This document shows positions 16,517-32,061 of a stretch of 43,031 nt of DNA, piece after piece. The DNA comes from a virus. The number at the start of each line of letters is the position of its first letter. Position 1 is the stretch's first letter. The position numbers and the translations under genes are program-made. The notes beneath the pieces are model-generated. The model made no database searches and had not been told where the DNA came from. It saw only the letters and a list, made by a program, of their open reading frames with translations. The stretch covers positions 1-43,031 of the IMG/VR virus record IMGVR_UViG_3300005264_000015. The stretch is one strand, 5' to 3'.

Positions 16517-16547
16517 TATGTTATATAACATATTTTTGTTATTTTTG
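16517..16547 (+). promoter_or_regulatory. late promoter 1: 16-bp palindrome, 7 bp, TAnnTTTG
   Basis: TATGTTATATAACATA (16517-16532) is a perfect palindrome. Seven bp later comes TATTTTTG (16540-16547), then TATT and the ATG at 16552. The whole arrangement is identical in spacing to 23089-23119 and 30095-30125. The palindrome occupies the place where a -33 element would be, so a bound activator may replace -33 contacts. Confidence 0.78.
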
Positions 16548-16551
16548 TATT

Positions 16552-16857
16552 ATGATAGTTTATCAAAGTGAAGCTTTCTATATTGCAAGCGTAACAGAAA
16601 AAAAAGCGAAAATTACTGCTATTAAAGCAATTATCGCAGCTTTAGAAGTTAAAGCATTATCTTCAATTGATAATATTGATGTTGAGGAATATATGTTAGA
16701 TGACGGGCAGACAAAGATTAAAACTACATTTCGTTCACCTGAAGCAATATGGAAAGCAATTCATAATTATGAAATACTATTGCAAAGGTATATTAATCAA
16801 TTAAATGGTCGTGTTGTTAGGTTACTTGATGCAGGTACGGCAACAAATATAAGATAA
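16552..16857 (+). CDS. gpW-like head completion / head-tail joining protein
   Basis: A 101-aa protein between the terminase and portal genes, the place of lambda gpW. It has an N-terminal helix (KKAKITAIKAIIAALEVKALSS), a central strand pair with IDNIDVEEYMLDDGQTKIKTTFRSP, and a C-terminal helix IWKAIHNYEILLQRYINQLNGR. This alpha-beta-beta-alpha layout fits gpW or related DUF6148-type proteins. It is the first gene of a late operon and is predicted to be translated from a leaderless mRNA. Confidence 0.6.
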   Translation: MIVYQSEAFYIASVTEKKAKITAIKAIIAALEVKALSSIDNIDVEEYMLDDGQTKIKTTFRSPEAIWKAIHNYEILLQRYINQLNGRVVRLLDAGTATNIR

Positions 16858-16861
16858 TATT

Positions 16862-18334
16862 ATGGGACTTTTTAGTATATTCAAGCGAGCGCCAGAATTA
16901 AAACAAACACAATACTCAGGATATTCTAATCCTATATTTGCAGTACATTTTGATGGTGAAAAAACACCTGGAGAAATGGGTAATATAAAAGATTATTATC
17001 CAGATTATTTTGCATTACGAGCAAGAAGTTGGCAATCATATTTAGAAAGTGATATTATTCAAACTATTGTAGGTAAATATATAATTTGGGTTATAGGTAG
17101 TGGATTAAGATTACAAACTGAACCTATTAAAGAATTATCTACAGAATTTGATTCTAATATATTGGAGACGAAATTTAGATTATTTGCAAAGAGTAAAATG
17201 TCTGCGTATAATAAAATTGATACAATTCATTCACTGGCTGTAAAAGCATTTAAAGAAGCAAAAATAGGAGGAGATTGTCTGGTTGTATTGCGTGTTAAAG
17301 ATGCACAATTAACTGTTCAAGTTATAGACGGAGATAATCTTACAACACCTTTTGGAGTTACAACTAAAAATATTCAAGACGGAATCGAATTAGGAAAAAA
17401 CGGTGAACATATTGCTTTTCATGTATATACAAAGGATGGTAATATAGAAGAAATACCAGCAAAAACAAACGGTATCATAACCGCTTATATGGTATATGGT
17501 TCTAAATATAGACTTGATGAAGTTCGTGGTATTCCTGCAATATCTGCAAATCTTGAAACTATTAAAAAACTTGATAGATATAAAGAAGCGACAGTAGGTG
17601 GAGCGGAAGAAAGAGCAAAAATACCATATTATATACATCACAAAACAGGCTCAACAGGTAGTAATCCACTAACTTCAAGCATTGCTAATGCAATGGCAGG
17701 AAATAAAGGTATTGCGCCAGAAACGGCAACAGATACAGATACGGCTCAAAAAATTGCACTTACAACGCAAAAGAGCGTATTTAATATGGAAATTGAAAGT
17801 GAATTAAAGTCACTTGAAAGTCGTCAAGAGCTTAATTTTGAAGAATTTTATACGACAAATGTAAAGAGTATATGTGCTAGTTTAATGATACCTTACGAGG
17901 TAGCATATTCAATGTATGATAGCAATTACTCAGCAAGTAGAGCGGCTATTAAAGATTGGGAGCATATTAAAAATGTAACAACTGAACACTTTTCACAGCA
18001 ATTTTATAAACCAATATATGATTTGTTTTTTGAATTGCAGATATTAACGGATGATTTAAACATCCCAGAATATTTACAAGCCGACGAATTAACTAAAGAA
18101 GCGTATAGAAATGCACGTTTTGTTGGTGTGAATGTAGCAAACATAGACCCACTAAAAGAAATTAAAGCAGAACGTGAAAAATTAGGTGAATTAGGTAAGT
18201 TTATACCGCTTACTACACTTGAACAAGCCACAGAAAACGTGAACGGAGGAGAATTTGCTCAAAATATAGAACGATTTACAAAAGAATTAGAACAAGCCAA
18301 AGAATTAATCCCAAAAGAAGATGTCAAAGAATAA
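16862..18334 (+). CDS. portal protein, lambda gpB family
   Basis: A 490-aa protein of the lambda portal type. Recognisable segments are YYPDYFALRARSWQSYLESDI and VGKYIIWVIGSGLRLQTEP near the N-terminus, a central EAKIGGDCLVVLRV and QVIDGDNL, and a C-terminal third with PYEVAYSMYDSNYSASRAAIKDWEHI, highly typical of the family. It forms the dodecameric ring for DNA passage at one capsid vertex. Its last 14 nt overlap the start of the next gene, indicating translational coupling. Confidence 0.9.
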   Translation: MGLFSIFKRAPELKQTQYSGYSNPIFAVHFDGEKTPGEMGNIKDYYPDYFALRARSWQSYLESDIIQTIVGKYIIWVIGSGLRLQTEPIKELSTEFDSNILETKFRLFAKSKMSAYNKIDTIHSLAVKAFKEAKIGGDCLVVLRVKDAQLTVQVIDGDNLTTPFGVTTKNIQDGIELGKNGEHIAFHVYTKDGNIEEIPAKTNGIITAYMVYGSKYRLDEVRGIPAISANLETIKKLDRYKEATVGGAEERAKIPYYIHHKTGSTGSNPLTSSIANAMAGNKGIAPETATDTDTAQKIALTTQKSVFNMEIESELKSLESRQELNFEEFYTTNVKSICASLMIPYEVAYSMYDSNYSASRAAIKDWEHIKNVTTEHFSQQFYKPIYDLFFELQILTDDLNIPEYLQADELTKEAYRNARFVGVNVANIDPLKEIKAEREKLGELGKFIPLTTLEQATENVNGGEFAQNIERFTKELEQAKELIPKEDVKE

Positions 18335-20270
18335 TACAGTAGGAATTTTTGAAGGCAAAATAGTTAAAAAAGCCGTCATATTAGATGGTGCTGTTGATTT
18401 AGGTAATTTGAATGATATATATGTGACTGTTGATGGAAAGAAAGCTGTTGCCATATATCAACTAGATGGTGTTGTTGATTGGCGAAATAATCAAAATCAT
18501 TTGGTTACGGTAGACACTCAAATTGCTATTGCAATGAAAGCGATAGATGGTGTTAATGATTATAAAAATTATCAATCAGCATTAATGAGCGTTGACGGTG
18601 AAATGTGTGTTGCCATTTATTTAATGACAGGAACCCCCACAACACTGAATAAACAAAGTAAAATGGTTGTAGTTGATAGGAAAAGGTCATTAGCAGTATA
18701 TGGTGTAGATGGTTTCTTCTGTTTTCCAAAAACAGGACTTTTACAATATTTAGGCGAAAAATCAGACACCCAACTATTAGACACCTACAACAAGGGCGAT
18801 GCAAGAGAAGTGCAACAAGCAAGGGCTTATGAGCTTGCAGGTAGTCAGTATATTGATACAGGAGTTAATGATGTGCTAACTTCATTTGTTGGGGAAATAA
18901 CATTTATTCTAACAGACTATACATCTACTGTATATCCTATTCTTTTTGGTAAAGGAACAACGGGGAGCTCTGAATTTATGTTTAGAGAAGCTGGAGGAAA
19001 ACTAAACTTATACGTAAATGGAGCTACTGTTATTTTAAATGGTGGAAATCTTACCTTGAATGTAGTTCATACAGCAAAAGTAATATTAACCCCAACAAGA
19101 CAAGAAGTAATACTAGATGGTGTTAGCACCGTAGCAACCAACACTATTGATTTTTCAACAACAAAAAACATAATGGTGGGTGGAACAGATGAATCATCTA
19201 ACCGTTTTTTGACAGGCAGAATATTTAACTATTCTTACATAATTAATGGAGGTAATGAAGTAGTTTATAATTGCGAAGAAAGAGCAGGTAATACATCATA
19301 CAGTACAACAGCAGGAGTAACAGCCGACATATACGGAAGTCTTACAGGCTTTCATGTAATAGACCACAGAAAAACTACTTGTTATTTAGATAGCGTAGGG
19401 TTTGCAATAGATAATACCAACCCCGATGTTGCTATACCAATAGGTACAGATGGCACACCAGTAGCAAGTTATGACACTTGGGACAAAGGGGTTGTGCCTA
19501 AAAATGTTAATTTTGTTAATGCAAGTTGCTTTCACTTCATTGCAGGGAGCAACATGATAGCAGGAATGACAGGTTTAACCGTAGTTGATTTTATTGCAGA
19601 AAGTGGAGTTACACCTATCATAAGTGGCGATAACCTGACAACCGATGTAGATGGTTGGGTTGCAATGGTTGAACTATCGAATGGAGCTAAATTAGTATTC
19701 ATAGGAGAGGGAACAAGCAACACGGTATATGACGTTAATAATGATACAGCGTATAGCATTGCAGGAACAATAACAGATGGTGTAAGTTGGATTACACAAG
19801 ACGCATATCACTTCAAAGAGAAGTATGGATATACAGCCCCCAATATACCCGCAAGTTTACTTAATATAGGACTTGATGTTTTAGGTGCAACTTTAGAATT
19901 TCCTCCTTGCGAAATAGGAAGTAATGATGGAAGCCAAAAACAATATCCTTTGGCATGCGATTTAATTCACGCTGATAATGATGAAATTTACTTCGATAAA
20001 ACAACACCTGAGTTAGTTGTGGCAAGAGAATTGAACAATGCAGACTTACCTGAAAATGGAGGTTATACAACCTGGAATAAAGTAGATAATTGCAAAATGC
20101 AAGGCTTGATGTATGACCACAATTTAAGTAATGACGAATTATACGATATTATTAAATGTTATAATAAAGGTATGAGCCTACCTATTGGTAAATGTATATT
20201 ACAAGATGGTTCAGGTAATGATTTAGTAGATTTTAATTTAATGGACTTAATTATAGGAGACTGCGTATAA
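18321..20270 (+). CDS. large virion protein with N-terminal repeats and LamG-like domain
   Basis: A 649-aa protein, unusual for its place between portal and head protease. Residues 1-135 contain about four repeats of 31-32 aa with the pattern VDG-x-Asn/Gln-rich-x-VTVDGKKAVAIYxLDG. Residues about 165-320 look like a concanavalin/LamG jelly roll (YIDTGVND, EITFIL, LNLYVNGATVIL, IMVGGTDES, GRIFNYSYI). The C-terminal half is unfamiliar and beta-rich. Proteins with such layout are often receptor-binding or capsid-surface adhesion proteins. The gene contains more C-rich stretches than its neighbours, which may indicate transfer. Portal coupling suggests virion location; the exact site is unknown. 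Confidence 0.55.
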   Translation: MSKNNTVGIFEGKIVKKAVILDGAVDLGNLNDIYVTVDGKKAVAIYQLDGVVDWRNNQNHLVTVDTQIAIAMKAIDGVNDYKNYQSALMSVDGEMCVAIYLMTGTPTTLNKQSKMVVVDRKRSLAVYGVDGFFCFPKTGLLQYLGEKSDTQLLDTYNKGDAREVQQARAYELAGSQYIDTGVNDVLTSFVGEITFILTDYTSTVYPILFGKGTTGSSEFMFREAGGKLNLYVNGATVILNGGNLTLNVVHTAKVILTPTRQEVILDGVSTVATNTIDFSTTKNIMVGGTDESSNRFLTGRIFNYSYIINGGNEVVYNCEERAGNTSYSTTAGVTADIYGSLTGFHVIDHRKTTCYLDSVGFAIDNTNPDVAIPIGTDGTPVASYDTWDKGVVPKNVNFVNASCFHFIAGSNMIAGMTGLTVVDFIAESGVTPIISGDNLTTDVDGWVAMVELSNGAKLVFIGEGTSNTVYDVNNDTAYSIAGTITDGVSWITQDAYHFKEKYGYTAPNIPASLLNIGLDVLGATLEFPPCEIGSNDGSQKQYPLACDLIHADNDEIYFDKTTPELVVARELNNADLPENGGYTTWNKVDNCKMQGLMYDHNLSNDELYDIIKCYNKGMSLPIGKCILQDGSGNDLVDFNLMDLIIGDCV

Positions 20271-20770
20271 TGGGATATATAGATGCGAAAGATTATTTCA
20301 GAGATAATATAGTAGGAATACAGAAAGCAATAGATGATTGTTCATCAGATGCAGGAGTAGTTACTATAAGCGATGTAGACGTATGGCACGAATATGTAAA
20401 TAACGGTTTAGGTTATAGAGATACAAGCGATGGCGATATATGGAATACTACAACTAATATAATAGACGTATCAGATAGGGTTTTATATGATGATATAGAT
20501 ATTACGTTAAAGACTACAGTTGAAACAAATTCAGCTAATAGTATGCTTCATGTAGAGCTATATATACCTGACCCTACTGGCGACATTCACGTAATGGGCA
20601 AAACCGTCACGCCGTCTAAGCAGAATATTCCTCACAGAGAAACAATTACATATCCTGCGTATATAGGAGCTAAGGCTAAACTTTACGGTTTTAAAATTCG
20701 CACAAAAGTAGATGCTACATTAAGTGGTATTTTTCAATTAACAGAACGTTCAATTTTAATAAGAATATAA
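20270..20770 (+). CDS. putative virion-associated protein (166 aa)
   Basis: It starts with TAATG overlap to the preceding gene. The N-terminus (MGYIDAKDYFRDNIVGIQKAI) is followed by GLGYRDTSDGDIW, which resembles the N-terminus of the next gene (MGYRDVSDLDTP). The C-terminal part is beta-rich (LHVELYIPDPTGDIHVMG). I do not recognise a family. The repeated GYRD module could be a shared docking element for fibre or decoration proteins. Confidence 0.5.
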   Translation: MGYIDAKDYFRDNIVGIQKAIDDCSSDAGVVTISDVDVWHEYVNNGLGYRDTSDGDIWNTTTNIIDVSDRVLYDDIDITLKTTVETNSANSMLHVELYIPDPTGDIHVMGKTVTPSKQNIPHRETITYPAYIGAKAKLYGFKIRTKVDATLSGIFQLTERSILIRI

Positions 20771-21429
20771 TGGGATATAGAGATGTAAGTGATTTAGACA
20801 CCCCTTTAAAAATAGGTAAAGGTACAGATACAACAGAGATAAGAGTAAATGGAACACAAAGATTAACGGGAGATGCTACCAGTTGGAGAGATATGATACT
20901 ATCCTTGATAGGCAAAAAGCTAACAGCTACAAATGGTAGAGTAGATTATGATTTTGACGAAATGTGTATCAAATTTCAAGATAATGGTTCTACTTCAAAT
21001 CCGAACGATTTTGTTGGTGGTAATATGGAAATAAACCACGACTTAATGGTCGGGACACAAGTTATCTTTAAACCGCACATTCATTGGTTTCAAGAAGTCG
21101 TAGGTGGTGTCGCACAAGAATGTGATTTAACTATGTTGTGGCGGATTCAAAACAACGACAATGCTAAAACTACTATATGGAATGAAGTAGAATGCAACAC
21201 TGGTGTTGGCGGTGATGATATATTTGATTTCACAAGTGAAGCAGATGGAATATATAATCAAATTTCAAGATTCCCAGATATGATTGTTGATTGCGGTATA
21301 AGTGATACTTTTCAAATTAAATTAGTTAGAACTGATAGTAATGGGGGCGATATGTTAGTTTACTTTTTTGATTTGCACGGAAAAGTAGATAGTTTTGGTA
21401 GTGATGAGGAAATAATGAAAATTAATTAA
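20770..21429 (+). CDS. putative virion-associated protein (219 aa)
   Basis: Coupled by TAATG to the preceding gene. The N-terminal MGYRDVSDLDTPLKIGKGTD is followed by a beta-sandwich-like domain with MEINHDLMVGTQVIFKPHIHW (about 85-105) and FQIKLVRTDSNGGDMLVYFFDLHG near the end. The HIHW pattern occurs in several phage fibre or decoration proteins of unknown structure. A role on the virion surface is inferred from gene order. Confidence 0.5.
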   Translation: MGYRDVSDLDTPLKIGKGTDTTEIRVNGTQRLTGDATSWRDMILSLIGKKLTATNGRVDYDFDEMCIKFQDNGSTSNPNDFVGGNMEINHDLMVGTQVIFKPHIHWFQEVVGGVAQECDLTMLWRIQNNDNAKTTIWNEVECNTGVGGDDIFDFTSEADGIYNQISRFPDMIVDCGISDTFQIKLVRTDSNGGDMLVYFFDLHGKVDSFGSDEEIMKIN

Positions 21430-21433
21430 TAAT

Positions 21434-21907
21434 ATGGAAGTAATAAAGAACAAAAGAAACATAGAGCTAATAGTCCCTTATACAGCAGTTAAAGGTGATG
21501 AGTATATTAAGGCACTGGTCCAAGAGGGGTTAATATTAGGACTTGACAGTGAGAATGTAACAGACGGTGAGCAATTATACAAAAGAGTATTCCTCAACTT
21601 CATAGAAGAAGATTTATTAGCTTATTGTATATCGCAAGGTTATGAAGTTAATTGGTTAAAACCTTATAATTACCCATATATTGAGTTAGGTGAGGGTACA
21701 GACACAGGAGAGCTTTATATTTATGAAAACCAACGTAGATATAAAGACGGTAAGATGCTAATAAGAATTGATAAGGCAGGAGACCAACAGAACCCATTAT
21801 TACCAACTTTTGAGGAATTAAAGGAATGGCAGAAATTAGGGAGTATTATTTGCGAGCCAAAGAATGTAGCAGATAAAATGAAAATTTACGATATTGATAA
21901 AATTTAA
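21434..21907 (+). CDS. hypothetical protein downstream of the surface gene group
   Basis: A 157-aa protein. The N-terminus (KRNIELIVPYTAVKGDEYIKALVQEGLILG) is alpha/beta, the middle is acidic, and the C-terminal part contains YIYENQRRYKDGKMLIRIDKAGDQ. No recognised domain. It is the last gene before the lysis genes and could be a small fibre chaperone or tail-like component, which cannot be decided. Confidence 0.5.
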   Translation: MEVIKNKRNIELIVPYTAVKGDEYIKALVQEGLILGLDSENVTDGEQLYKRVFLNFIEEDLLAYCISQGYEVNWLKPYNYPYIELGEGTDTGELYIYENQRRYKDGKMLIRIDKAGDQQNPLLPTFEELKEWQKLGSIICEPKNVADKMKIYDIDKI

Positions 21908-21911
21908 AATA

Positions 21912-22274
21912 ATGAAAGTAAATAAAAGTTTGATAATAGGATTATTACTTCTAATTGCAGGAGGGTTAGGCAGTATTTTATGGTTTTCGTTTAATACAAT
22001 TATCGAGAATAAGATAAACAACGAAAGCATTCAGAACAACCAAGTAATATTAAATAACAAATTTGACACATTTATCGCATTGCATAGTTCGCAAAATATA
22101 GAGTTAAATAAACGAATAGATGGCATTAAAGATAGTTTGGCGAAGCAGGGCGAACGAAACAATCAAGGTCATGACGAGATTATTCATAAAGTAAATAATA
22201 TTATTTATATTGAAAAAAAAACTGATAAGAATTTTCGGGAACTTTGGAATACAATTAACTTGACAGTAAGATGA
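21912..22274 (+). CDS. membrane protein with coiled coil, putative lysis accessory
   Basis: A 120-aa protein from ATG 21912 (MKVNKSLIIG); a longer in-frame start lies 18 nt upstream and overlaps the previous stop. One N-terminal membrane segment LIIGLLLLIAGGLGSILWF (7-25) is followed by a long helix rich in Asn, Lys and Glu (30-110), probably a periplasmic coiled coil. It is joined by ATGA overlap to the two-pass holin candidate. A spanin- or holin-modulating role is possible. Confidence 0.5.
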   Translation: MKVNKSLIIGLLLLIAGGLGSILWFSFNTIIENKINNESIQNNQVILNNKFDTFIALHSSQNIELNKRIDGIKDSLAKQGERNNQGHDEIIHKVNNIIYIEKKTDKNFRELWNTINLTVR

Positions 22275-22456
22275 ATATAAGGCAATACATAAGGGCAATA
22301 ATAACCGCTGTAATGATGTTAATTATTGTTATAGTTATCTTTGTTATTCATTACGACAATGTTTATTTGGACGTATTAAAAGAATTGAGCTTGCCTTTGA
22401 CTATTATACTTGGCGGTTATTTCTCCGTTGAGGCTGTTAAAAATATAAAGAAATGA
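22271..22456 (+). CDS. putative holin (two membrane segments)
   Basis: A 61-aa protein with hydrophobic segments ITAVMMLIIVIVIFVIHY (11-28) and LSLPLTIILGGYFSVEAV (39-56). Short N- and C-termini with basic residues fit a class II holin. ATGA overlaps link it to the membrane gene before and the endolysin gene after. Holins set the time of lysis by opening the inner membrane for the endolysin. Confidence 0.6.
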   Translation: MNIRQYIRAIITAVMMLIIVIVIFVIHYDNVYLDVLKELSLPLTIILGGYFSVEAVKNIKK

Positions 22457-22791
22457 AACACTTTAAAAAAGAGGAGTTTACAATGGGCGATATTAACGTA
22501 TTTGAAAAAATGGACGTTAAATTGCTCAATAATTTAGATAGTTTAAGAGAGCTTTGTGGCTTTCCTTTAAAAATCAATTCGTCATATCGAAGTGAAGAAT
22601 ATAATGAAAAAATACGAGGTGCAAAAAACAGCCAGCACTTGTTAGGAAAAGCAGTTGATATTTATTGTATAGATGCGACTAAGCGAAAAGAAATTGTAAA
22701 AAATGCTTTAAATTTAGGGTTTAGCGTTGGCGTTGCAAAGACATTTGTACATATTGACGTTAGAGAATTGCAATTATTATTTACTTATTAA
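22453..22791 (+). CDS. endolysin, peptidase M15 family
   Basis: A 112-aa protein of the M15 (VanY/L-Ala-D-Glu type) peptidase group. Zinc and catalytic residues are visible: S-x-H-x-x-G-x-A-x-D at 60-69 (SQHLLGKAVD) and a second zinc His in FVHID (100). The preceding SSYRSEEYN is also typical. It cuts the peptide stems of peptidoglycan. No signal peptide is seen, so export would depend on the holin. Single-domain, short form. Confidence 0.85.
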   Translation: MKHFKKEEFTMGDINVFEKMDVKLLNNLDSLRELCGFPLKINSSYRSEEYNEKIRGAKNSQHLLGKAVDIYCIDATKRKEIVKNALNLGFSVGVAKTFVHIDVRELQLLFTY

Positions 22792-22801
22792 AACATAACC
22801 T

Positions 22802-23086
22802 ATGAATTATTATCAAGTAGCGGAAAATTTAGGAATTACTTTAATCTCATTTACCGCAGGTGTAGCATTAGGTGCATTTGTTGTGTTCCAAGTCACAGAT
22901 ACTATTGTTGATAGTAACCAAAAAGTGCTAATTACAGCAATTAACAAGAACACTACCGAAGTATCTAATAATATCGGAAAAGTTAAGACTGGGAGAAAAT
23001 CAACAACCGATTTAGATTTAACCAACAATATCGACACAATAAAGAAAAAGAGACATTGGTGGCAAAGAAAAAATAAAAACAAATAA
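22802..23086 (+). CDS. small membrane protein of the lysis cassette
   Basis: A 94-aa protein with one membrane segment LGITLISFTAGVALGAFVVFQV (9-30), a polar region, and a strongly basic C-terminus KKKRHWWQRKNKNK. It lies last in the operon, before late promoter 2. It could be a second holin/antiholin or an i-spanin-like component. The basic aromatic tail probably lies at the membrane face. Confidence 0.45.
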   Translation: MNYYQVAENLGITLISFTAGVALGAFVVFQVTDTIVDSNQKVLITAINKNTTEVSNNIGKVKTGRKSTTDLDLTNNIDTIKKKRHWWQRKNKNK

Positions 23087-23088
23087 AT

Positions 23089-23119
23089 TATGTTATATAA
23101 CATATTTTTTATACATTTG
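23089..23119 (+). promoter_or_regulatory. late promoter 2: palindrome, 7 bp, TAnnTTTG
   Basis: TATGTTATATAACATA (23089-23104), 7 bp, TACATTTG (23112-23119), TATT, then ATG at 23124. It is identical in design to late promoters 1 and 3. It drives protease, decoration and capsid genes. Confidence 0.78.
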
Positions 23120-23123
23120 TATT

Positions 23124-24299
23124 ATGAACTATAAATTAGCAACTGAGTTATATCGCGGAGCGTGGTTTATGGACTATTTAACATTGAATAGTTATAATCA
23201 TATTTTAAACGATTTTAAGGCAGGAAAAGAGTTTACAGGCGAACCAACAGCTCGCGAATATTACGATTTAGTTGAGCAGGTAAAAACAGATAGAGCAATA
23301 AACGATTCTATTAATATACTTTCAATTGACGGTATTATTACAAAATATGGTGGTGCAAGCCATTATGGTATGCGTGAAATGGGTCAAATGCTTATCAAAG
23401 CAGACGCAGAGAATAACGTAAAAGGACATATTATTGTAATGGAGAGTGGCGGAGGTTCTACAAATGCTATTCCTGAAATGACAGAGGCTATGCAACAAGT
23501 AACTAAACCAATTGTTGTGTGGGTTGACGGTATAATGGCAAGCGCTGCAATGTATATAGGCTCGTATGCAGATTATATTTTTGCAAGTCGTAGCACTGAT
23601 ATGATAGGTTCAATTGGTACAATGATAGAATTTGCAGGAAAACCAAAACAAGCAGAAAACGGAAATACCAAAGATAGATTTGTACGTATATATGCTAACA
23701 AATCTACCAACAAAAATGGTATGTTCGAAGAAGCAATAAACAACTATAATTTCAAGCCAATTCAAGAAAAAATGCTCAATCCTGCAAACGAGCAATTTAT
23801 TCAAGATATTAAAGCAAATCGTCCCAACGTTAGAGAAATTGAACTAACAGGGGAGATTTTTAAAGCATCGGAGGTAGTTGGAACGCTTATTGATGAAATA
23901 GGCACATTTCAACAGGCTATTGATAAAGTTGTTTCCTTAACTGAACAAAAAGAAATTAATACTAAATTAAATACAAATATGAATCTCACAGAATTAAAAT
24001 CGAAACACCCTGAATTATTTGCAGAGGCTGTAAATATTGGAGTTTCGCAGGAAAATGATAGAGTGGGTGCTTGGATGGCATTCGTGGAAATCGACCCTAA
24101 AGCTGTAAAAGAGGGGATAAACAGCGGAGAGAATGTATCGCAAACGTTTATGGCGGAAATGGCTGTTAAACAAATGAAATCTAAAACTATCAATGATTTA
24201 GAAAAAGGTACAGTAGAAGAAGTTACAACAACAACTCCTAAGAATGACGAGGCGAAAGCATTAGAAGCATTTGAAAAGGAATTAAACGAATTGAAATAA
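23124..24299 (+). CDS. S49-family prohead protease with C-terminal scaffold-like region
   Basis: A 391-aa protein. Residues 62-260 form an SppA/ClpP-like S49 peptidase (lambda gpC type): INILSIDGIITKYGG, IIVMESGGGSTNA, and catalytic Ser140 in GIMASAAMY; GSIGTM follows. The last 105 residues (from NMNLTELKSKHPELF) are helical and charged like a scaffold. An internal ATG at MNLTEL (about 23979) could start a separate scaffold protein, as Nu3 lies inside C in lambda; no clear ribosome site supports or excludes this. The gene is first in late operon 2 and is predicted to be leaderless. Confidence 0.87.
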   Translation: MNYKLATELYRGAWFMDYLTLNSYNHILNDFKAGKEFTGEPTAREYYDLVEQVKTDRAINDSINILSIDGIITKYGGASHYGMREMGQMLIKADAENNVKGHIIVMESGGGSTNAIPEMTEAMQQVTKPIVVWVDGIMASAAMYIGSYADYIFASRSTDMIGSIGTMIEFAGKPKQAENGNTKDRFVRIYANKSTNKNGMFEEAINNYNFKPIQEKMLNPANEQFIQDIKANRPNVREIELTGEIFKASEVVGTLIDEIGTFQQAIDKVVSLTEQKEINTKLNTNMNLTELKSKHPELFAEAVNIGVSQENDRVGAWMAFVEIDPKAVKEGINSGENVSQTFMAEMAVKQMKSKTINDLEKGTVEEVTTTTPKNDEAKALEAFEKELNELK

Positions 24300-24300
24300 T

Positions 24301-24756
24301 ATGGGACAAGCTACACAAGTAGATACTCGTAATCAATTATACATTGATTCAGATATCGGAAAAATATTTGTTTGGAATAACAGATATTCAAAAGGTACAT
24401 TTACAAATGGTACAGGAGCAGAATTAACCTTAACAAGAGGAACATTACTAGGGCGTGTTGCGTCAAGTAATAAAATTGCGGTGATGAAATCAGCGTCAAC
24501 AGATGGTAGTCAATTACCTATTGGTATTTTAGCTGAAACAGTAACAATTGCAAATGGAGCAAGTCTTTCATTGAATTTTTGTGTTGCTGGCGATGTAGTA
24601 TCAAGCAAATTAATTTTTGATGGTACGGATACAGTATTAAAAGTAATGACACTATCAACAGATGATAATATTACTAAAACCTATGGAGATATAATTGCTG
24701 ATTTAAACATCAGACTCGTAGGTGGTGACGAATTAACCGCAGTAGATAACTCATAA
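24301..24756 (+). CDS. head decoration protein, lambda gpD-like
   Basis: A 151-aa protein just upstream of the capsid gene, as in lambda. It has a beta-rich fold with TLTRGTLLGRVASSNKIAVM and LPIGILAETVTIANGASLSLNFCVAGDVV, fitting the HDPD/gpD family, whose trimers clamp the expanded capsid. It starts 1 nt after the protease stop. Confidence 0.78.
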   Translation: MGQATQVDTRNQLYIDSDIGKIFVWNNRYSKGTFTNGTGAELTLTRGTLLGRVASSNKIAVMKSASTDGSQLPIGILAETVTIANGASLSLNFCVAGDVVSSKLIFDGTDTVLKVMTLSTDDNITKTYGDIIADLNIRLVGGDELTAVDNS

Positions 24757-24766
24757 ATAAATAGAT

Positions 24767-25840
24767 ATGGCTACAATTCCAATTTCGCAAGCAAAGGGTA
24801 TATTTACTCAGAAGTTAATTGCGACATACAAAGAGCAGAACACACCAACAAGTTTCTTGCGTTCGTTCTTTACAGTAAAAGAATCAGATACTTTATATAT
24901 TAGTATCGAAGTGCAGAGAGGCACGGAAAAAATTGCTGCTGACGTAATGCGCGGCACAGAAGGAAATCGTAATACTTTCTCAAAATCAAGCGAGAAAATT
25001 ATTCAACCTCCTTATTACAGAGAGTATTTTGATGCAACAGAATTAGATTTCTACGATACATTATTTGGCGAAGGTCAAGGCGTTGTATCTGCTGTTAAAT
25101 TCAAATCTTGGATGGACAAAATTATCGAGAAGATATTAATGCTACAATTCAAAATTGAAAGACGATATGAATTGCAAGCTGCTCAGGTAATGGAAGATGG
25201 TATCGTAACACTTACAAACGGTGATAATATTGATTTTAAGCGTAAAGCGTTATCAAAAGTAACTGTTTCTACAAAGTGGGATTCAGGTGCATCTGTACCA
25301 TTAACAGATATTGCTACAGGTTTAAAGTTTTTACGTACAGTTGGTAAAGCTGGAGGAGGAACATTTAATATGATTTGCGGTGAAAATGCAATAGCTGAAT
25401 TATTAAGTCATGCAGATATCAAAGAAAATGCAAATCTTAGAAATTATGATTTAGCATTTATTCGTGAACCACAACGTAATGCAGTTGGCGGAACATTACA
25501 TGGTCAAATATCAGTAGGTGCATACAAGGTTAATCTTTGGAGTTATCCTGAATTTTACGACAATGCAAGTGGTGTTTCTACATCATATTTAGATACAAAG
25601 AAAGTAACTTTACTTCCTTTAGCTCCTAAATTTGTAATGAGTTACGCAGGTGTTCCAAGATTAGTGGATACTCCTAAATCAACTGGTTTAAGTAAAGCGA
25701 TTGCACCTACAAAAGGAGCTTTTGTTGTTGGACGCTATATTGACGAAAGAAATACAACAGATGTATTTGATATTAAATCAGCAGGTGTTGCAATTCCTTT
25801 GGCAGTTGACCAAATTTACACAATGCAAGTTTTAGCCTAG
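24767..25840 (+). CDS. major capsid protein, lambda gpE family
   Basis: A 357-aa protein with the features of the Phage_cap_E family: TSFLRSFFTVKESDTLYISIEVQRG near the N-terminus, PPYYREYFDATELDFYD (about 80-97), the long helix around ERRYELQAAQVMEDG, and a C-terminal VTLLPLAPKFVMSYAGVP. Gene order (portal, protease, decoration, capsid) agrees. An intrinsic terminator follows, so the capsid mRNA can be made in excess over downstream genes. Confidence 0.92.
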   Translation: MATIPISQAKGIFTQKLIATYKEQNTPTSFLRSFFTVKESDTLYISIEVQRGTEKIAADVMRGTEGNRNTFSKSSEKIIQPPYYREYFDATELDFYDTLFGEGQGVVSAVKFKSWMDKIIEKILMLQFKIERRYELQAAQVMEDGIVTLTNGDNIDFKRKALSKVTVSTKWDSGASVPLTDIATGLKFLRTVGKAGGGTFNMICGENAIAELLSHADIKENANLRNYDLAFIREPQRNAVGGTLHGQISVGAYKVNLWSYPEFYDNASGVSTSYLDTKKVTLLPLAPKFVMSYAGVPRLVDTPKSTGLSKAIAPTKGAFVVGRYIDERNTTDVFDIKSAGVAIPLAVDQIYTMQVLA

Positions 25841-25856
25841 TTTTTGTTTTCATTAT

Positions 25857-25881
25857 AAAGGGTTGCAATATACCCTTTTTT
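25857..25881 (+). terminator. intrinsic terminator after the capsid gene
   Basis: A 7-bp perfect stem AAAGGGT (25857-25863) and ACCCTTT (25872-25878), loop of 8 nt, followed by T residues. Downstream genes lack a promoter with the palindrome, so it is probably leaky and sets the ratio of capsid to connector proteins. Confidence 0.7.
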
Positions 25882-25894
25882 AAAATTTTATAAG

Positions 25895-26272
25895 ATGGCA
25901 AATAAAAAATATAAAGTAATTAGTTTATCAGTTTCAGGAATGAATAATAACATTCATCGTTACGGCGATGTAGTTACTGAAAAAATGTTTCCGGGTAAAA
26001 ATGCTATGCAGCTTGAAAAAGAAGGTTTTTTGAAAGAATTCACTAAAAAAGAATACAAAAAAGAAGCTGATAAGGAAAAAGTTGCTGAAAAATTAGCAGA
26101 AGAACAAGCACAAAGAGAAGCTGAAAAATTAGCTGAAATTGAAGCGGAAGAAGCTGAAAAATTAGAGATTGAAAAATATGCAAAAAAAGAATTTAAAGTT
26201 GATATTGACCGTAGAAAATCATTAGAAGATTTAAAAGCGGAAGTTGAAGCATTAAAGAAGGCAAAAAAATAA
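25895..26272 (+). CDS. small capsid-adjacent protein with helical charged region
   Basis: A 125-aa protein. The N-terminus MANKKYKVISLSVSGMNNNIHRYGDVVTEKMF is beta-rich. The middle (45-95) is a long Lys/Glu/Ala helix, certainly coiled coil or single alpha helix. The C-terminus DIDRRKSLEDLKAEVEALKK resembles the small terminal helical domain seen in several phage head-tail proteins. It sits between capsid and connector genes, so a head completion role is likely. Confidence 0.55.
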   Translation: MANKKYKVISLSVSGMNNNIHRYGDVVTEKMFPGKNAMQLEKEGFLKEFTKKEYKKEADKEKVAEKLAEEQAQREAEKLAEIEAEEAEKLEIEKYAKKEFKVDIDRRKSLEDLKAEVEALKKAKK

Positions 26273-26644
26273 ATGGATATATTAACACAGGCGCGAAGTG
26301 ATTGGGATAGATTTACATCTAACGGAGGATTTCAAGTTGAAATCGCAATAACAACTCCATCGGGTGATGTTTATACTGTTTTTGGGCTTGCGGTTAAGCA
26401 TCATTTATCTATTGACCCTGACGGATTACCTGTTTCGAGTAAAGTTGCTCATATCACAATAACTGAACAAGTGTTACTCACAGCAGGTTATAATGTAAGG
26501 GATTCTAAACAAGAAGTTAATTTAATCAATAATAAAGTATCATATAAAGATAATTCAGGAGTATTAAAGCATTATATTGTATCAGAACAATATGCAGACG
26601 AAACAGTTGGTGCAATAACACTTAATTTAAACGATTATGAGTAA
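26273..26644 (+). CDS. putative head-tail connector/stopper
   Basis: A 123-aa protein directly after the preceding gene with no gap. It is beta-rich (FQVEIAITTPSGDVYTVFGLAVKHHLSID; AHITITEQVLL). In place and size it matches the connector/stopper protein between capsid and tail sheath genes in Mu-like phages. Its end overlaps the next gene by 8 nt. No diagnostic motif, so this rests on gene order. Confidence 0.5.
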   Translation: MDILTQARSDWDRFTSNGGFQVEIAITTPSGDVYTVFGLAVKHHLSIDPDGLPVSSKVAHITITEQVLLTAGYNVRDSKQEVNLINNKVSYKDNSGVLKHYIVSEQYADETVGAITLNLNDYE

Positions 26645-27242
26645 ATTAAATAATCCTATACCAGTACAAGCATACGAATTAATTCGTGACCAAATCGGTA
26701 TTATTATAACTGATGAACTTGCAAATCAATACGTGCTTACAAGTGATGAGGATTTGAATATTACTAATATATTTTCGGAGCGTTTTATTACTTTTGACAA
26801 ATCAGAATTAACAGCTATCAATATTTCATTACAGGATGGAAATTATGACGCACAAGATTCAATTGAAACAGATGCACATTATACATTTAATATAGATGTA
26901 GAAGTTGCCGCAAAATCAAGTGAATTATTGCGTGGCGATATTCATTCAAGGCAGAAATTACATAAAATAATTGGTAAGATTAGAGCTATTTTAATGGCGC
27001 CAGCTTATCAAACTTTAGGTTTTGAAATGCCTTTTATTAGTAATAGAAAAATAAATAGCATACAGAACGATACTACAATGCAACAACGAGACGCAATTAA
27101 TTCAAGTTTTGGTAGACTAATATTAGAAGTTAAAACAATCGAAACAGCAGAATTAATTCAACCAGTTATTGCAGCAGGTTATGATACGGAGGTTAAAATA
27201 AGTTTAACAGATAAAGGTTTTAAATACGTTTTTAATAATTGA
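26637..27242 (+). CDS. putative tail terminator / neck protein
   Basis: A 201-aa protein immediately upstream of the tail sheath. It has the mixed alpha/beta look of tail terminators (VQAYELIRDQIGIIITDELANQ; DAHYTFNIDVEVAAKSSELLRG; LHKIIGKIRAILM). Such proteins cap the tail at the neck. Family assignment is by position and fold impression. Confidence 0.5.
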   Translation: MSKLNNPIPVQAYELIRDQIGIIITDELANQYVLTSDEDLNITNIFSERFITFDKSELTAINISLQDGNYDAQDSIETDAHYTFNIDVEVAAKSSELLRGDIHSRQKLHKIIGKIRAILMAPAYQTLGFEMPFISNRKINSIQNDTTMQQRDAINSSFGRLILEVKTIETAELIQPVIAAGYDTEVKISLTDKGFKYVFNN

Positions 27243-27246
27243 TATT

Positions 27247-28776
27247 ATGGCAATTAGTGTAGCGGTTGGAACAGAAAGAGTTAGTAAAATAGTTGGCTAT
27301 ACAATTACAAAAGGTAATTTTAGCAATACAACTCCAAATTTACCTATGAGAATAGCTATATTAGGAGAAGCAAACACAGCTAATCAATCAACTTTAAGTA
27401 CAACCAAAAAAGAAGTAACATCAGCACAAGAAGCTGGTGAATTGTATGGTTTTGGTTCGCCAATTCATGCAATTATGCGAATATTACGACCTATTTCGGG
27501 TACGGGTATTGGAGGAATACCTACAATAGTATATCCTCAAAAGGAGGTAGCCGGAGCAGCTGCTCAAGTTACAGATGTAACACCAACAGGAACAGCAACC
27601 GGTAATGTAACTCATTATTTAAGAATTGCTGGTAGAGACAATATTGATGGCGAATTTTATTCGTATAATGTTGAAACAAGCGACAATGCTGCCGCAATTA
27701 TCGCTAAACAAGTTGCTGCCGTAAATGCAGTTCAAGGTTCACCTGTTATTGCAACAGACGGAACAACAAAATTAACACTCACATCTAAATGGAGAGGCGT
27801 AACCGCTGCTGATTTAGTTGTTGAAGTTGATACAAACGATGATGCAGCAGGTATTTCGTATGCAGTTGCAAGTTCAGCTTCTGGTTCAGGAGCAGTAGCA
27901 ATTTCAGACGCTCTAAACCAATTTGGTACAGACTGGAACACTATTGTAATTAATCCTTATGGAGTTGCTCAATTTACAACACTTGAATCATTTAATGGCG
28001 TTCCTGGTACATCGCCAACAGGTAGATATTCGGCAACAACATTCAAGCCGTTTATTGCACTTTGGGGTTCAACTGAAGATAGTAAGACAACGCTTGCAAT
28101 CATAACTGATGCAACAGCAAGAAAAGACCAATTAACGAATGCACTTTGTCCAGCTCCAAATTCAGATGGATTTCCATATGAAGCAGCTGCAAATGGAGCA
28201 TTATTATTTGGACGTGTTTCGCAAGATACACCTCATTTAGATGTTAGTTCGTTAAATTATGCAGATATGCCTACTCCAGAAGATGGAGTAATAGGTGATA
28301 TGAGTGATTATGAAAATCGTGATTACTTAGTGCAAAAAGGGTGTTCAACAGTCGAGTTGATTAATGGAAAATATACTTTTACGGATTTTGTAACTACATA
28401 CCATCCAGACGGAGAAATACCACCGCAATTTAGATATTGTCGTAGTTTAATTCAGGATTGGAATGTTAGATTTGCTTATTATTTGTTAGAAGCCATAAAT
28501 GTCGTTGGACATTCAATTGCAGCAAGTAATCAACCAGTAAATGTTGCAAATGTTGTAAAACCAAAACAATGGATTCAAATTCTTAACGGAATGGCAGATG
28601 ATTTAGGAGAACGAAATATTATTTCAGAGCCGGATTTTATGCAAGATTCAATTGAAGTTGGAACAAGTGATACAAACCCTGACAGGTTAGAAACTTTCTT
28701 TAGATATAAACGAAGCCCATACGCAAGAATAGCATCTACAACAGCAGAAGCAGGATTTGCATTTGGTTTAAAATAA
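27247..28776 (+). CDS. contractile tail sheath protein, Mu gpL-like
   Basis: A 509-aa protein with features of phage tail sheath: PMRIAILGEAN near residue 30, YGFGSPIHAIMRIL, a central domain, GRYSATTFKPFIALWG, RYCRSLIQDWNVRFAYYLLEA, and the C-terminal RLETFFRYKRSPYARIASTTAEAGFAF, very close in pattern to Mu gpL homologues. This defines the virus as a myovirus. The sheath contracts to drive the tube through the cell envelope. Confidence 0.88.
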   Translation: MAISVAVGTERVSKIVGYTITKGNFSNTTPNLPMRIAILGEANTANQSTLSTTKKEVTSAQEAGELYGFGSPIHAIMRILRPISGTGIGGIPTIVYPQKEVAGAAAQVTDVTPTGTATGNVTHYLRIAGRDNIDGEFYSYNVETSDNAAAIIAKQVAAVNAVQGSPVIATDGTTKLTLTSKWRGVTAADLVVEVDTNDDAAGISYAVASSASGSGAVAISDALNQFGTDWNTIVINPYGVAQFTTLESFNGVPGTSPTGRYSATTFKPFIALWGSTEDSKTTLAIITDATARKDQLTNALCPAPNSDGFPYEAAANGALLFGRVSQDTPHLDVSSLNYADMPTPEDGVIGDMSDYENRDYLVQKGCSTVELINGKYTFTDFVTTYHPDGEIPPQFRYCRSLIQDWNVRFAYYLLEAINVVGHSIAASNQPVNVANVVKPKQWIQILNGMADDLGERNIISEPDFMQDSIEVGTSDTNPDRLETFFRYKRSPYARIASTTAEAGFAFGLK

Positions 28777-28783
28777 TTAGATT

Positions 28784-29191
28784 ATGGCAGTTGGAGGCGA
28801 TATTATAGAAATAACATACAACCACCCTACATTAGGTTCAGGTACGTTGTATCCAAAGAGTGGTGAAGCTTTTACGCTTGACCAAGGAGGCATACGTTCA
28901 GCAGACGATGCAAATGGTATTGACGGTTCAGGTACACCTATTAGAACAATGAATTACGTTCGTTGGACTGTTGAGGGTATTATAAGTTGGAGTTCAAATA
29001 CCACAAATGAAGTTGACGTACTTTCAAAATTGGCAGCTGACCCTGTTGAGAGTGATTGGACGTTAGCGAGTATTAACGGAGTTGTTTGGGGAGGTAAAGG
29101 CTTTCCTGTAGGTGACATAAACGGAGATACAAATGCAGCAACTACATCTATTAAGATTAGTGGAGGTAAACTATTTAAAAAAATAGGTTAA
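28784..29191 (+). CDS. tail tube protein, Mu gpM-like
   Basis: A 135-aa protein next to the sheath gene, the constant partner. It is beta-rich with Gly and Asp loops (GGDIIEITYNHPTLGSGTLYPKSGEAFT; MNYVRWTVEGIISWSSN; ATTSIKISGGKLFKKIG). It forms the inner tube through which DNA passes. A terminator-like hairpin follows. Confidence 0.8.
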   Translation: MAVGGDIIEITYNHPTLGSGTLYPKSGEAFTLDQGGIRSADDANGIDGSGTPIRTMNYVRWTVEGIISWSSNTTNEVDVLSKLAADPVESDWTLASINGVVWGGKGFPVGDINGDTNAATTSIKISGGKLFKKIG

Positions 29192-29202
29192 TATATAATT
29201 AT

Positions 29203-29230
29203 GGGCGTTGAAATATACGCTCTTTTATTT
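29203..29230 (+). terminator. terminator-like hairpin after the tail tube gene
   Basis: GGGCGT (29203-29208) pairs with ACGCTC (29217-29222), including one G-T pair, followed by TTTTATTT. It is weaker than the one after the capsid gene, but likewise stands after a gene whose product is needed in many copies. Confidence 0.45.
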
Positions 29231-29252
29231 ACATTTTAAAGCACGAAATAAA

Positions 29253-29672
29253 ATGGCACAAATTAATTTACAAACAGCTCTGATTGAGCTTGACAAATGG
29301 TACGATTTCAAACGTATCAAACCATCAAAAAGGGAGACTGAAAAAGTAAATGGTGAACTAAAACTAAAACAAGAATCACCAATTCCAATAATTGTTGAAG
29401 CTATTATGTATGGCGATTTAGTTTTACAAAAAGATTTTAGTTTTAAACACAAACTGAACTTCCCTTTAGGTAAGATTGAAGAGTTTACATATAAAGCAAG
29501 ATTAACCAGTGGTGATGTTGCTAAGAAATTAAATGGTATTGATTCAACAAATCCATCAACTCTTTTGAATGCTTACGCTGCATTATTAGCTGATGAAAAT
29601 ACTCATGTAATCGCAGGACTCGACACAGAAGATAATCGAATCGCTCAAAGTGTTGCGATGTATTTTTTGTAA
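29253..29672 (+). CDS. tail assembly chaperone, upstream frame
   Basis: A 139-aa protein from MAQINLQTALIELDKW at 29253; an in-frame ATG at 29208 lies within the terminator hairpin and is rejected. Middle: PIPIIVEAIMYGDLVL, DFSFKHKLNFPLGKIEEFTYKARLT. Position between tail tube and tape measure is that of lambda G or Mu gp41. The last sense codons, TAT TTT TTG before TAA, contain the slippery heptamer T-TTT-TTG, and the -1 frame continues into the 53-codon frame that follows. So two products are expected: a short one and a fusion. Confidence 0.65.
   Translation: MAQINLQTALIELDKWYDFKRIKPSKRETEKVNGELKLKQESPIPIIVEAIMYGDLVLQKDFSFKHKLNFPLGKIEEFTYKARLTSGDVAKKLNGIDSTNPSTLLNAYAALLADENTHVIAGLDTEDNRIAQSVAMYFL
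29663..29669 (+). other. putative -1 ribosomal frameshift site (T TTT TTG)
   Basis: The heptamer fits X-XXY-YYZ in the reading phase of the upstream gene and lies directly before its stop codon. Slipping back by one base gives TTT TTT GTA AGT TTA CCG ATG..., which runs without stop into the next frame up to 29842. It is the standard position for the programmed frameshift in tail chaperones. No stimulatory stem-loop was established by eye. Confidence 0.6.
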
Positions 29673-29680
29673 GTTTACCG

Positions 29681-29842
29681 ATGTTAGATGTTATGATTAA
29701 ATCTGTAGTAAGATTATATCATTTTACACCAACAGATATTTCAAAAATGTATGTTGATACAGTTGATTATAACGGCTTAGAATATTGGTACAACGATGCA
29801 AAAGATTACAACGAAGAAATAAAGAAGGGCAGTAAAAAATAA
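29681..29842 (+). CDS. tail assembly chaperone, -1 frame extension
   Basis: A 53-codon frame (from ATG 29681) that should normally be made as the C-terminal part of a frameshift fusion. Its sequence VVRLYHFTPTDISKMYVDT, then EYWYNDAKDYNEEIKK, is like the T-domain of such chaperones: hydrophobic, aromatic, ending with a helix carrying a WYNDAKDY-type motif. It ends at the perfect terminator 29829-29857, which overlaps its last codons. Independent translation from the ATG is possible but less likely. Confidence 0.6.
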   Translation: MLDVMIKSVVRLYHFTPTDISKMYVDTVDYNGLEYWYNDAKDYNEEIKKGSKK

Positions 29843-29857: not shown

Positions 29858-29860
29858 ATG

Positions 29861-30061: not shown

Positions 30062-30065
30062 ATTC

Positions 30066-30110
30066 CAAAATTACAAAAAAAACAATACAATATTTATGTT
30101 ATATAACATA
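30066..30110 (-). promoter_or_regulatory. leftward promoter sharing the palindrome with late promoter 3
   Basis: On the minus strand TAATTTTG (30066-30073) lies 21 bp downstream of TATGTTATATAACATA (30095-30110). Then come 4 nt and the ATG at 30061. Box and spacing equal those at 6525-6569. So one operator serves two divergent promoters at different distances. Confidence 0.65.
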
Positions 30111-30125
30111 TTTTTAGTACTTTTG
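30095..30125 (+). promoter_or_regulatory. late promoter 3: palindrome, 7 bp, TAnnTTTG
   Basis: The palindrome is at 30095-30110, then 7 bp, TACTTTTG (30118-30125), TATT and ATG at 30130. It drives the tape measure and baseplate genes. Confidence 0.78.
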
Positions 30126-30129
30126 TATT

Positions 30130-32061
30130 ATGGCGACCACATTTACAGTACAGGCACAATTTCAAGCTGTTGACCACTTTTCGAGTAAGGTTAAGCAGAT
30201 GCAAAAGGCTACAATGACCTTTTCGCAGCGTGCCAGTGCTAATATTGCAAAAGTTGATAGACAGTTACGTAAACTTACTCCGTCAATTAGTGCTTTAGGT
30301 AAGCAGATGATTGCTATGGGTGTTTCTATGGCATTATTTGCAGGTGTTTCAAGCGCTGTAAATACAGTAAAAGACTTTGAACAAGCAAATGCAAATCTTG
30401 CGGCTGTATTACAAAAAACACGCGAAGAAATAAAACCGCTTACAGAATCAGCAAAAGCACTTGGAAAAACTACGGAATGGAGTGCGTCAGAAGTAACTGG
30501 ATTACAGGATGCTTATTCGCGATTAGGTTATGAGCAAGAAAATATAATTAAAGTTCAAGGAGCAACGCTTGAAGGTGCTACTGCATTACAAGCAGGATTA
30601 CAAGAATCGGCAGAATTAGTCGGTGGAACATTAAGAGCTTATGGAGAAGGAGCTGACCAAGCTCAAAGATATGTAGATGTTCTTGCAAAAAGTACAGCCA
30701 CATCAGCATTAAATTTTGAAAAACTAGCTACATCATTACCAATCGTAGGTAAGACTGCGGATGTAGCAGGTGTATCATTTGAGCGTACAGCGGCACAATT
30801 AGGTATTTTGAGTAATAATAACATTGACGCATCAACAAGCGGTTCTGCATTGAGAAATATTTATTTAGATTTAGCTAAAAAAGGTCTTACATATGACCAA
30901 GCAATGGCAAAAATAAATGGCTCTACAAATAAATTAAACACAGCAAATGAATTATTTGGCAAACGTGGCGCAACTGTAGCTTTAACACTATCTACTAACA
31001 TAAAAAATGTTGATAGTTTAGAAAAGAAATTAAAAAATGCAAGCGGAACAGCGAAAGAAATGGCTGAAAAGCAATTAAACACACTTGAAGGCTCATTAAA
31101 AATATTGAATTCAGCTTGGGAGGGTGCAGTTATTGACGTTGCAAATAATACTGAAGCAATGAGCAACCTTAAAAAAGTAGTTCGATTTTTATCAGATAAT
31201 CTTACAACTATTTTAAAAGTATTAGGATTGGTTGCTGCAGCTTTTGTGGTATTAAAAACAGTTATATGGGCATCAAGAACAGCTATGCTCGCGTATAATA
31301 TTATAATGGGTATTAGTGCCGCATTAACTGGTACATTAACTGCTTCATTGGCTACAAATACAGCGGCTCAATCAGCCTTTGCAATAGCAAGCAAAGTAAT
31401 TACAGGAGCTACATGGCTATGGAGTGCTGCTCAAACAGCTTTAAATGCTGTTTTATGGGCAAATCCTATTGGAATAATTATTGGAATAATAGTTATATTA
31501 ATAGCCGCAATAACTTATGTAATTAAAAAGACTGACGGATGGGGTAAGCAATGGGATATTACAATAAACGGAATGAAGGCAAGTTGGGAGTTATTTACGC
31601 TCAGTTTTATACATACTGGGCAAGTTATATCTGATAAATGGCATGATATAACTGAAAGCATTGTAAGGAAATGGCAGTGGGGTCAATACAAAATGGGATT
31701 AATGTCTGAAGTTGAGTATAAGAAAGAAATATTTCGTTCTCATGTTCAAGCTATACAGCGAAAAGGCGAGATAATGAAGACTACCAATGCAATGGTCGAA
31801 GCAAAGCGCAAAATGGATGAAAATAGCAAGTTTGTAATGACATGGAACGATAAATCAATTAGTGATATATCTGGAGAATTAATGGCTGATTTAGGTATGG
31901 GTGCTGACCCTGTAAATGCTCAACAAACGAGCATACAAAGACAAGAAAATATAACAAAAAATAATGTAAATGTGAATATAAAAGACCCAAATAATAATGC
32001 AACCGTAACAGATGGATTTGGTCGACCTATACCTGCTACATTACCAAATTTCTCATACTAA
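30130..32061 (+). CDS. tail tape measure protein, TP901 type
   Basis: A 643-aa protein. The N-terminal third has the TP901 core domain: FEQANANLAAVLQ (about 80-92), LGKTTEWSASEV, AYSRLGYEQENI, SAELVGGTLRAYGEG, KSTATSALNFEKL, LGILSNNNIDAST, GKRGATVAL. Hydrophobic membrane-like segments lie in the middle (VLGLVAAAFVVLKTVIW; WANPIGIIIGIIVILIAAITYVI, about 435-465). The C-terminus is polar. At 643 aa it suggests a rather short tail (about 1.5 Å per residue is the usual rule, so roughly 95 nm). It is first in late operon 3. Confidence 0.88.
   Translation: MATTFTVQAQFQAVDHFSSKVKQMQKATMTFSQRASANIAKVDRQLRKLTPSISALGKQMIAMGVSMALFAGVSSAVNTVKDFEQANANLAAVLQKTREEIKPLTESAKALGKTTEWSASEVTGLQDAYSRLGYEQENIIKVQGATLEGATALQAGLQESAELVGGTLRAYGEGADQAQRYVDVLAKSTATSALNFEKLATSLPIVGKTADVAGVSFERTAAQLGILSNNNIDASTSGSALRNIYLDLAKKGLTYDQAMAKINGSTNKLNTANELFGKRGATVALTLSTNIKNVDSLEKKLKNASGTAKEMAEKQLNTLEGSLKILNSAWEGAVIDVANNTEAMSNLKKVVRFLSDNLTTILKVLGLVAAAFVVLKTVIWASRTAMLAYNIIMGISAALTGTLTASLATNTAAQSAFAIASKVITGATWLWSAAQTALNAVLWANPIGIIIGIIVILIAAITYVIKKTDGWGKQWDITINGMKASWELFTLSFIHTGQVISDKWHDITESIVRKWQWGQYKMGLMSEVEYKKEIFRSHVQAIQRKGEIMKTTNAMVEAKRKMDENSKFVMTWNDKSISDISGELMADLGMGADPVNAQQTSIQRQENITKNNVNVNIKDPNNNATVTDGFGRPIPATLPNFSY

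Follow-up and report, generated by a model that had tools for sequence, protein, structure and literature searches.

What reads the 16-bp palindrome that recurs at operon starts of the virus record IMGVR_UViG_3300005264_000015 (IMG/VR), and on which genes does it act? The window, that is the whole 43,031-base record, carries three exact copies of the palindrome TATGTTATATAACATA, each a short distance upstream of a -7 promoter box of the form TAnnTTTG and of the first gene of a late operon. In an initial annotation, these sites were taken as late promoters on which a phage-encoded dimeric activator replaces the -33 element. Here, the arms TATGTT-N4-AACATA (hereafter the dyad) were followed through the window, a related phage, other phages and host genomes. 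The reading that we tentatively prefer is that the dyad is the putative site of one phage regulator, most likely the protein encoded at 6572-6901, which would activate middle operons and serve the late ones from the -33 position.

Dyads at operon starts of the window

The three late dyads, all on the plus strand, were recovered exactly as first described, each followed by a gap of 7 bp, a -7 box, TATT and ATG. The first (16517..16532) lies between terL and the head-joining/portal operon (16552-23086), with the box TATTTTTG (16540..16547) and a predicted leaderless start at 16552. The second (23089..23104) precedes the head protease, capsid and sheath operon (23124-29842), with the box TACATTTG (23112..23119) and ATG at 23124. 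The third (30095..30110) precedes the tape-measure/baseplate operon (30130-38787), with the box TACTTTTG (30118..30125) and ATG at 30130, and is common to a divergent minus-strand promoter. The promoters had been called identical; dyad, spacing and TATT are the same in all three, but the 7-bp spacer and the two free positions of the box vary. Late operons were delimited by PHROG head and tail assignments and by synteny with phages phi3:1 and FCL-2, and the early, middle and late classes used throughout were assigned by gene content. The gene names given earlier hold, except that the head-joining protein corresponds to PHROG 5196, of unknown function, and owes its name to synteny.

The TAnnTTTG box (TAHHTTTG in Flavobacterium johnsoniae) is exact at 3/3 late promoters, which fits the Bacteroidota sigma-ABfr promoter. 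Transcription in F. johnsoniae begins 4-5 nucleotides (nt) past the -7 box, which extends from -12 to -5 (PMC6847099), so that late mRNAs are predicted to begin at the AUG. In this numbering, which is used below with predicted starts, each late dyad reaches from -35 to -20, with its centre at -27.5, and thus covers the -33 position, as had been proposed. All three late copies have an ATAT core and are the most perfect palindromes among the window sites.

Contrary to a restriction to late operons, the same arms precede minus-strand operons at 6554, 8445 and 40486. The site TATGTTACACAACATA (6554..6569, minus strand) lies 21 bp from the box TAATTTTG (6532-6525; centre -41.5), before the 6473 gene and the ATPase/helicase genes; TATGTTATGTAACATA (40486..40501, minus strand) lies ahead of the VRR-NUC-like operon 40450-38953, 22 bp from TACTTTTA (40463-40456) and centred at -42.5; and TATGTTGTAAAACATA (8445..8460, minus strand) lies 32 bp from TACTTTTA (8412-8405), with its centre at -52.5, in front of the operon whose products include the tandem winged-helix protein discussed below. 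In addition, late dyad 30095 is placed 21 bp (centre -41.5) from the divergent box TAATTTTG (30066..30073, minus strand), which is followed by GAAT and the ATG of open reading frame (ORF) 30061-29861. In the box of two middle promoters, TTTA replaces TTTG. Two weaker sites were noted on the minus strand. The first, TGTGTTGTAAAACATT (1483..1498), mismatched at 2 arm positions and 22 bp from TATATTTG, is located at the helicase stop codon, where locus L346 of the related phage has an exact dyad (9538). The second, TTTGTTATATTAAATA (13158..13173, 3 mismatches), is tentative and lies 7 bp before the box TATTTTTA of the first early promoter, which has a consensus -33 TTTG. The three exact-arm minus-strand copies, both weak sites and the divergent use of 30095 all go beyond the initial annotation. 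An exact dyad was found neither at the first early operon nor at the terminase operon of the window.

In total, six exact-arm dyads were counted versus ~0.007 expected from order-3 simulations; 6/6 are intergenic, intergenic DNA being 8% of the window, and all are at operon starts. When up to 3 mismatches to the full 16-mer were allowed, 9 matches were obtained versus 2.03 expected, a count reached in 0/100 shuffles. No other window dyad with arms of at least 6 bp is repeated as often (null maximum 2-3). These counts, far above chance, and the conservation of the dyad at counterpart middle operons of the related phage make it very improbable that the palindromes are chance repeats or transcription terminators devoid of a regulatory role. 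A terminator would be in line with the position of two late dyads closely behind a stop codon and with the TTTTT after all three, but the RNA hairpins (-2.6 to -3.4 kcal/mol) are no better than those of shuffled sequences and a terminator scan gave no G-C-rich stem. The terminator reading was rejected on these grounds.

At most operon-first genes of the window, a -7 box is found 4-5 nt before the ATG (13804, 16552, 23124 and 30130 on the plus strand; 30061, 7706, 8400 and 40450 on the minus strand), so that leaderless mRNAs are predicted. The distance from box to ATG peaks at 4-5 nt in related phages too. The terminase operon, with the box TACATTTG (13792..13799, plus strand) and a 4-nt leader, provides the contrast case of such a promoter lacking a dyad.

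Candidate regulator and the two registers

The phage of the window has a contractile tail and is akin to the phages FCL-2 and FL-1 of Flavobacterium and phi3:1 of Cellulophaga (identities of 37-38% for the terminase and 50-53% for the sheath), and its host is a Flavobacterium-type bacterium. The gene layout is that of phi3:1, with structural genes on the plus strand and replication genes on the minus strand; no close DNA relatives were found among known phages. The window dyad is absent from phage isolates including FCL-2, FL-1 and phi3:1, and none of 12 virus records linked to it by the capsid protein had the exact dyad. At the late operon starts of relatives, the TAnnTTTG box near the ATG is often kept and the window dyad is missing. 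A scan of viral_contigs for the exact 16-mer gave 49 apparently unrelated stretches, nearly all lacking a box, and among the relatives of the VirE-type primase (71 loci) a single dyad match was found, present twice and within apparent coding sequence. A single dyad copy was present in 1/2 Allomuricauda host genomes.

The one close early-region relative found, among the matches listed in a variable-gap dyad scan, was G411 (L346, 15.6 kb). Its proteins are 66% (helicase), 55% (ATPase), 65% (VRR-NUC-like nuclease) and 31-46% (baseplate genes) identical to those of the window. Of its three exact dyads, one lies before the operon that contains the winged-helix gene (32 bp from TATATTTG), one before the ATPase/helicase operon (23 bp) and one before the nuclease gene (32 bp); their centres, at -43.5 or -52.5, differ by one helical turn. 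Conservation of the palindrome in related phages, suggested earlier as a check, was thus found in G411 at middle gaps, and not in the relatives reached through the capsid.

The candidate regulator (6572..6901, minus strand) is a protein of 109 amino acids (aa) with two tandem winged-helix domains (HTH_17, MerR/excisionase-like), identified by Pfam, AlphaFold2 (AF2) and Foldseek. Pfam HTH_17 matches the protein in two stretches and the AF2 model, built on a two-row alignment, has two winged helices (pLDDT 86, pTM 0.51); Foldseek returned weak likeness to excisionase, MerR and TraN (best E 0.013), and a sequence search of the PDB gave no match. A homologue 47-49% identical is encoded in G411 and is the only clear one among all loci compared. 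It was found through the variable-gap dyad scan and synteny; a direct search gave none in viral_contigs and weak partial matches only in phages. No clear homologue was present in dyad-less relatives. In both the window and G411, the gene lies inside an operon preceded by the dyad, an arrangement consistent with autoregulation. This protein is the best regulator candidate for the dyad. Other shared regulators could fall outside G411, since G411 is a fragment. Of the two helix-turn-helix (HTH) proteins put forward initially, it is the one that co-occurs with the dyad; the other, a 52-aa protein encoded by the first early gene (12958..13116, minus strand), has no family match and its AF2 model, one long helix, is uninformative.

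A regulator encoded by the phage is favoured, because the winged-helix candidate co-occurs with the dyad in G411 and because no excess of the dyad was detected in 61 Flavobacteriaceae genomes (40 matches vs ~57 for the reversed control). A host-wide regulon was rejected for the Flavobacteriaceae on the latter result.

The dyads of the window fall into two registers, centred at -27.5 at late operons and at -41.5, -42.5 or -52.5 at minus-strand operons. The middle gaps of the window (21, 22, 21 and 32) and of G411 (32, 23 and 32) are in phase along the helix (R 0.93, P = 2e-4; P = 5e-3 with unambiguous boxes only). Such a fixed phase would be required of an activator that contacts the polymerase. 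In the model we prefer, the regulator would come from a dyad-bearing operon and would act as an internal or true dimer. The first early operon would be read by unaided host polymerase, and middle and late operons would come on afterwards. At middle operons, the regulator most likely activates, from a position at -41.5 to -43.5 or, further upstream by one helical turn, at -52.5. At late operons, the dyad over -35 to -20 would stand in for a weak -33 element, and the regulator would most likely recruit or position RNA polymerase on a good -7 box. Binding of the regulator, its dimer form, activation and timing are what we infer from the sequence.

Several points weigh against this model. The late sites, with their gap of 7, are displaced by 0.67 turn from the phase of the middle register and cannot offer the same activating contact. 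Operators placed over -35 to -20 typically serve repression. A weak -33 element is no proof of a need for an activator, because there is little -33 signal across F. johnsoniae promoters taken together (PMC6847099). The choice of box is ambiguous at 6554 (21 or 48 bp) and 8445 (20 or 32 bp); at the latter, a gap of 32 was taken because the counterpart site of G411 also has 32. G411 covers no late promoter, its dyads being counterparts of the middle operons of the window, and the co-occurrence of dyad and winged-helix protein rests on two records. Moreover, similar dyads precede late genes in phages that have no winged-helix protein in the available sequence.

Activation at late sites is the weakest step of the model, and a dual activator/repressor is nearly as plausible there. 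As a whole, it is a rather doubtful but serious alternative that a phage protein activates middle operons from -42 or -52.5 and represses late ones through -35 to -20, the late genes being switched on after titration by replicated DNA or removal of the protein. That late sites are out of phase with middle ones, overlap the core promoter and are the most perfect palindromes (ATAT core in 3/3) would suit it, and TraN, a tandem winged-helix protein, is a repressor (PMC10877727). Nevertheless, an extra step is required to free the late promoters, and a dyad at -27.5, which recurs in host FopS promoters and before late genes of unrelated phages (see below), looks more like a positive element. Thus, of the activator proposed initially, the phage origin is favoured, while its late activation has operator-type repression as a live alternative.

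It is improbable that the dyads serve a lysogeny repressor as scattered operators of the kind found in stoperator phages. Multiple dispersed sites at operon starts and a C-terminal fragment of an integrase (40517-40843) agree with such a system. However, this integrase has 108 aa and no N-terminal part, no CI-like gene was recognised and an exact dyad is missing from the first early promoter, the one that a repressor would have to keep shut. In addition, helical phasing is not expected of stoperators and asymmetric sites are, whereas the window sites are symmetric and linked to promoters. The tyrosine integrase fragment adjoins the 40486 dyad and is possibly a remnant.

Comparison with known phage switches

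The initial annotation knew of no described late-control system of this form. Phage Mu provides one: Mor, a phage-encoded dimer, binds a 16-bp dyad centred at -43.5 and replaces the -35 element, and C uses a dyad at four late promoters, so that both act on dyads at middle or late promoters lacking a -35 element (PMC4390567, PMC4287176). As in Mu, a dyad-symmetric element is found in the regulated promoters (six exact-arm dyads in the window), and the middle centres of the window and G411 at -41.5 to -43.5, on predicted starts, match that of Mor. Unlike in Mu, centres at -52.5 (middle sites) and -27.5 (late sites) also occur, the arms are 6-N4-6 instead of 5-N6-5, one dyad serves both middle and late operons, the candidate is a tandem HTH_17 protein and the promoter is of the sigma-ABfr type. 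No match to the Mor family was obtained among the window proteins scanned, and membership of the Mor/C family fails on the protein.

In T4, the MotA box is centred at -30 and replaces the -35 element while a -10-type box stays (PMC2988021). This is close to the late register of the window, in which the dyad, centred at -27.5, ends 7 bp upstream of the box; the MotA/AsiA element lies ~12 bp upstream of the -10-type box. MotA differs in being a monomer that binds an asymmetric box and needs AsiA, whereas the window site is a perfect 16-bp palindrome. TraN of pIP501 is a tandem winged-helix repressor that binds its own promoter at a 34-bp site (PMC10877727). Like TraN, MerR and excisionase proteins, the candidate is predicted by Pfam and AF2 to hold winged-helix domains, two in one chain, but TraN controls plasmid transfer and its Foldseek likeness to the candidate is weak.

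By analogy, the control logic is already known from Mu Mor/C and T4 MotA. New is the combination of one perfect dyad, two registers, sigma-ABfr-type promoters and a tandem winged-helix candidate. In the open-licence literature searched, no middle/late switch was described for phages of this type. The same dyad at structural and replication operons resembles Mu control, in a bacterial group with no worked-out phage switch, and the two-register dyad, its sites in a second phage and the naming of a candidate regulator together yield a model of temporal control at sigma-ABfr promoters that lends itself to direct tests.

Dyads in unrelated phages and host genomes

When viral contigs were searched in full for a dyad followed at 5-9 bp by TAHHTTTG, 34 stretches were returned, about half of them in genes after removal of duplicates. 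All matches with a gene start behind them (8/8) precede late genes: at the terL-portal junction (L013, L223 and L301), before a head protease (L018 and L347), before tail genes (L285 and L233) and before a DUF6549 gene (L006). The record of L285, G409, is akin to L013 (portal 76%) and has a second site, with one mismatch, at its own terL-portal junction. A homologue of the winged-helix protein is absent from both the 43-kb G409 and the 36-kb G416. In G409, a phage protein with the DnaA C-terminal DNA-binding domain (PF08299) is encoded at 3366-3776 (L343).

These sites, among them two late sites in G409 with no winged-helix homologue, bear on the possibility that the dyad is a promoter element of Bacteroidota host type, read by a host regulator and borrowed by phages for late genes. 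This is unlikely, given the lack of an excess in Flavobacteriaceae genomes and the absence of the dyad from FCL-2, FL-1, phi3:1 and capsid-related contigs. The late-promoter matches in unrelated phages may themselves be due to chance, because the promoters scanned were uncounted and no gap-7 enrichment of the dyad was seen in 2 Mb of unselected related phage DNA.

Exact gap-7 dyads were found in 4/395 Bacteroidia genomes (vs 2 control matches); in favour of a host element, 3/4 of these are promoters of the small RNA (sRNA) FopS, for which a regulator of unknown identity has been proposed (PMC11697453). Further FopS copies carry the dyad with one mismatch. FopS (RF04319) promoters with TTTTTCATG leaders in Bacteroidales (L350, L352, L354, L356, L358 and L359) have TATG[TC]T-N4-AACATA, or one mismatch to it, exactly 7 bp upstream of TATATTTG, as at the late sites of the window; FopS copies with TTTTTCATA leaders do not have the gap-7 dyad. 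These promoters differ from those of the window in that their genes are host sRNAs. A Bacteroidota-wide control element, in which a dyad ~7 bp upstream of TAnnTTTG at phage late and host FopS promoters is recognised by a single host factor or by a recurring family of phage factors acting from the -33/spacer position, is likewise doubtful. The FopS link, if true, would point to the regulator proposed for these sRNAs.

Repeated dyads of other sequence were observed in related phages. Five copies of TGCAAA-N4-TTTGCA are present in phi3:1 (L061; 30634, 33682, 36138, 43022 and 44241), and the motif was also found in phiSM (L063). It lies 17-18 bp upstream of TATATTTG at minus-strand promoters, and its right arm holds the -33 TTTG. 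FL-1 (L062) has two 20-bp dyads, TTACGCAAA and TTTGCGTAA (44728 and 47370), 14-15 bp upstream of a TAnnTTTG box. As in the window, 6-N4-6 or similar dyads are repeated at several promoters; unlike in the window, they are centred near -37 and were not seen at structural operons. In G009 (of L029), three TATCAA/TTGATA arrays with multiple half-sites (8712, 20359 and 20711) abut a TACCTTTG-like box, one of them preceding an XRE-like ORF of 88 aa. Finally, two copies of a GTGGGAC repeat array (6909 and 20192) precede an AT-rich box-like sequence in G004 (of L021).

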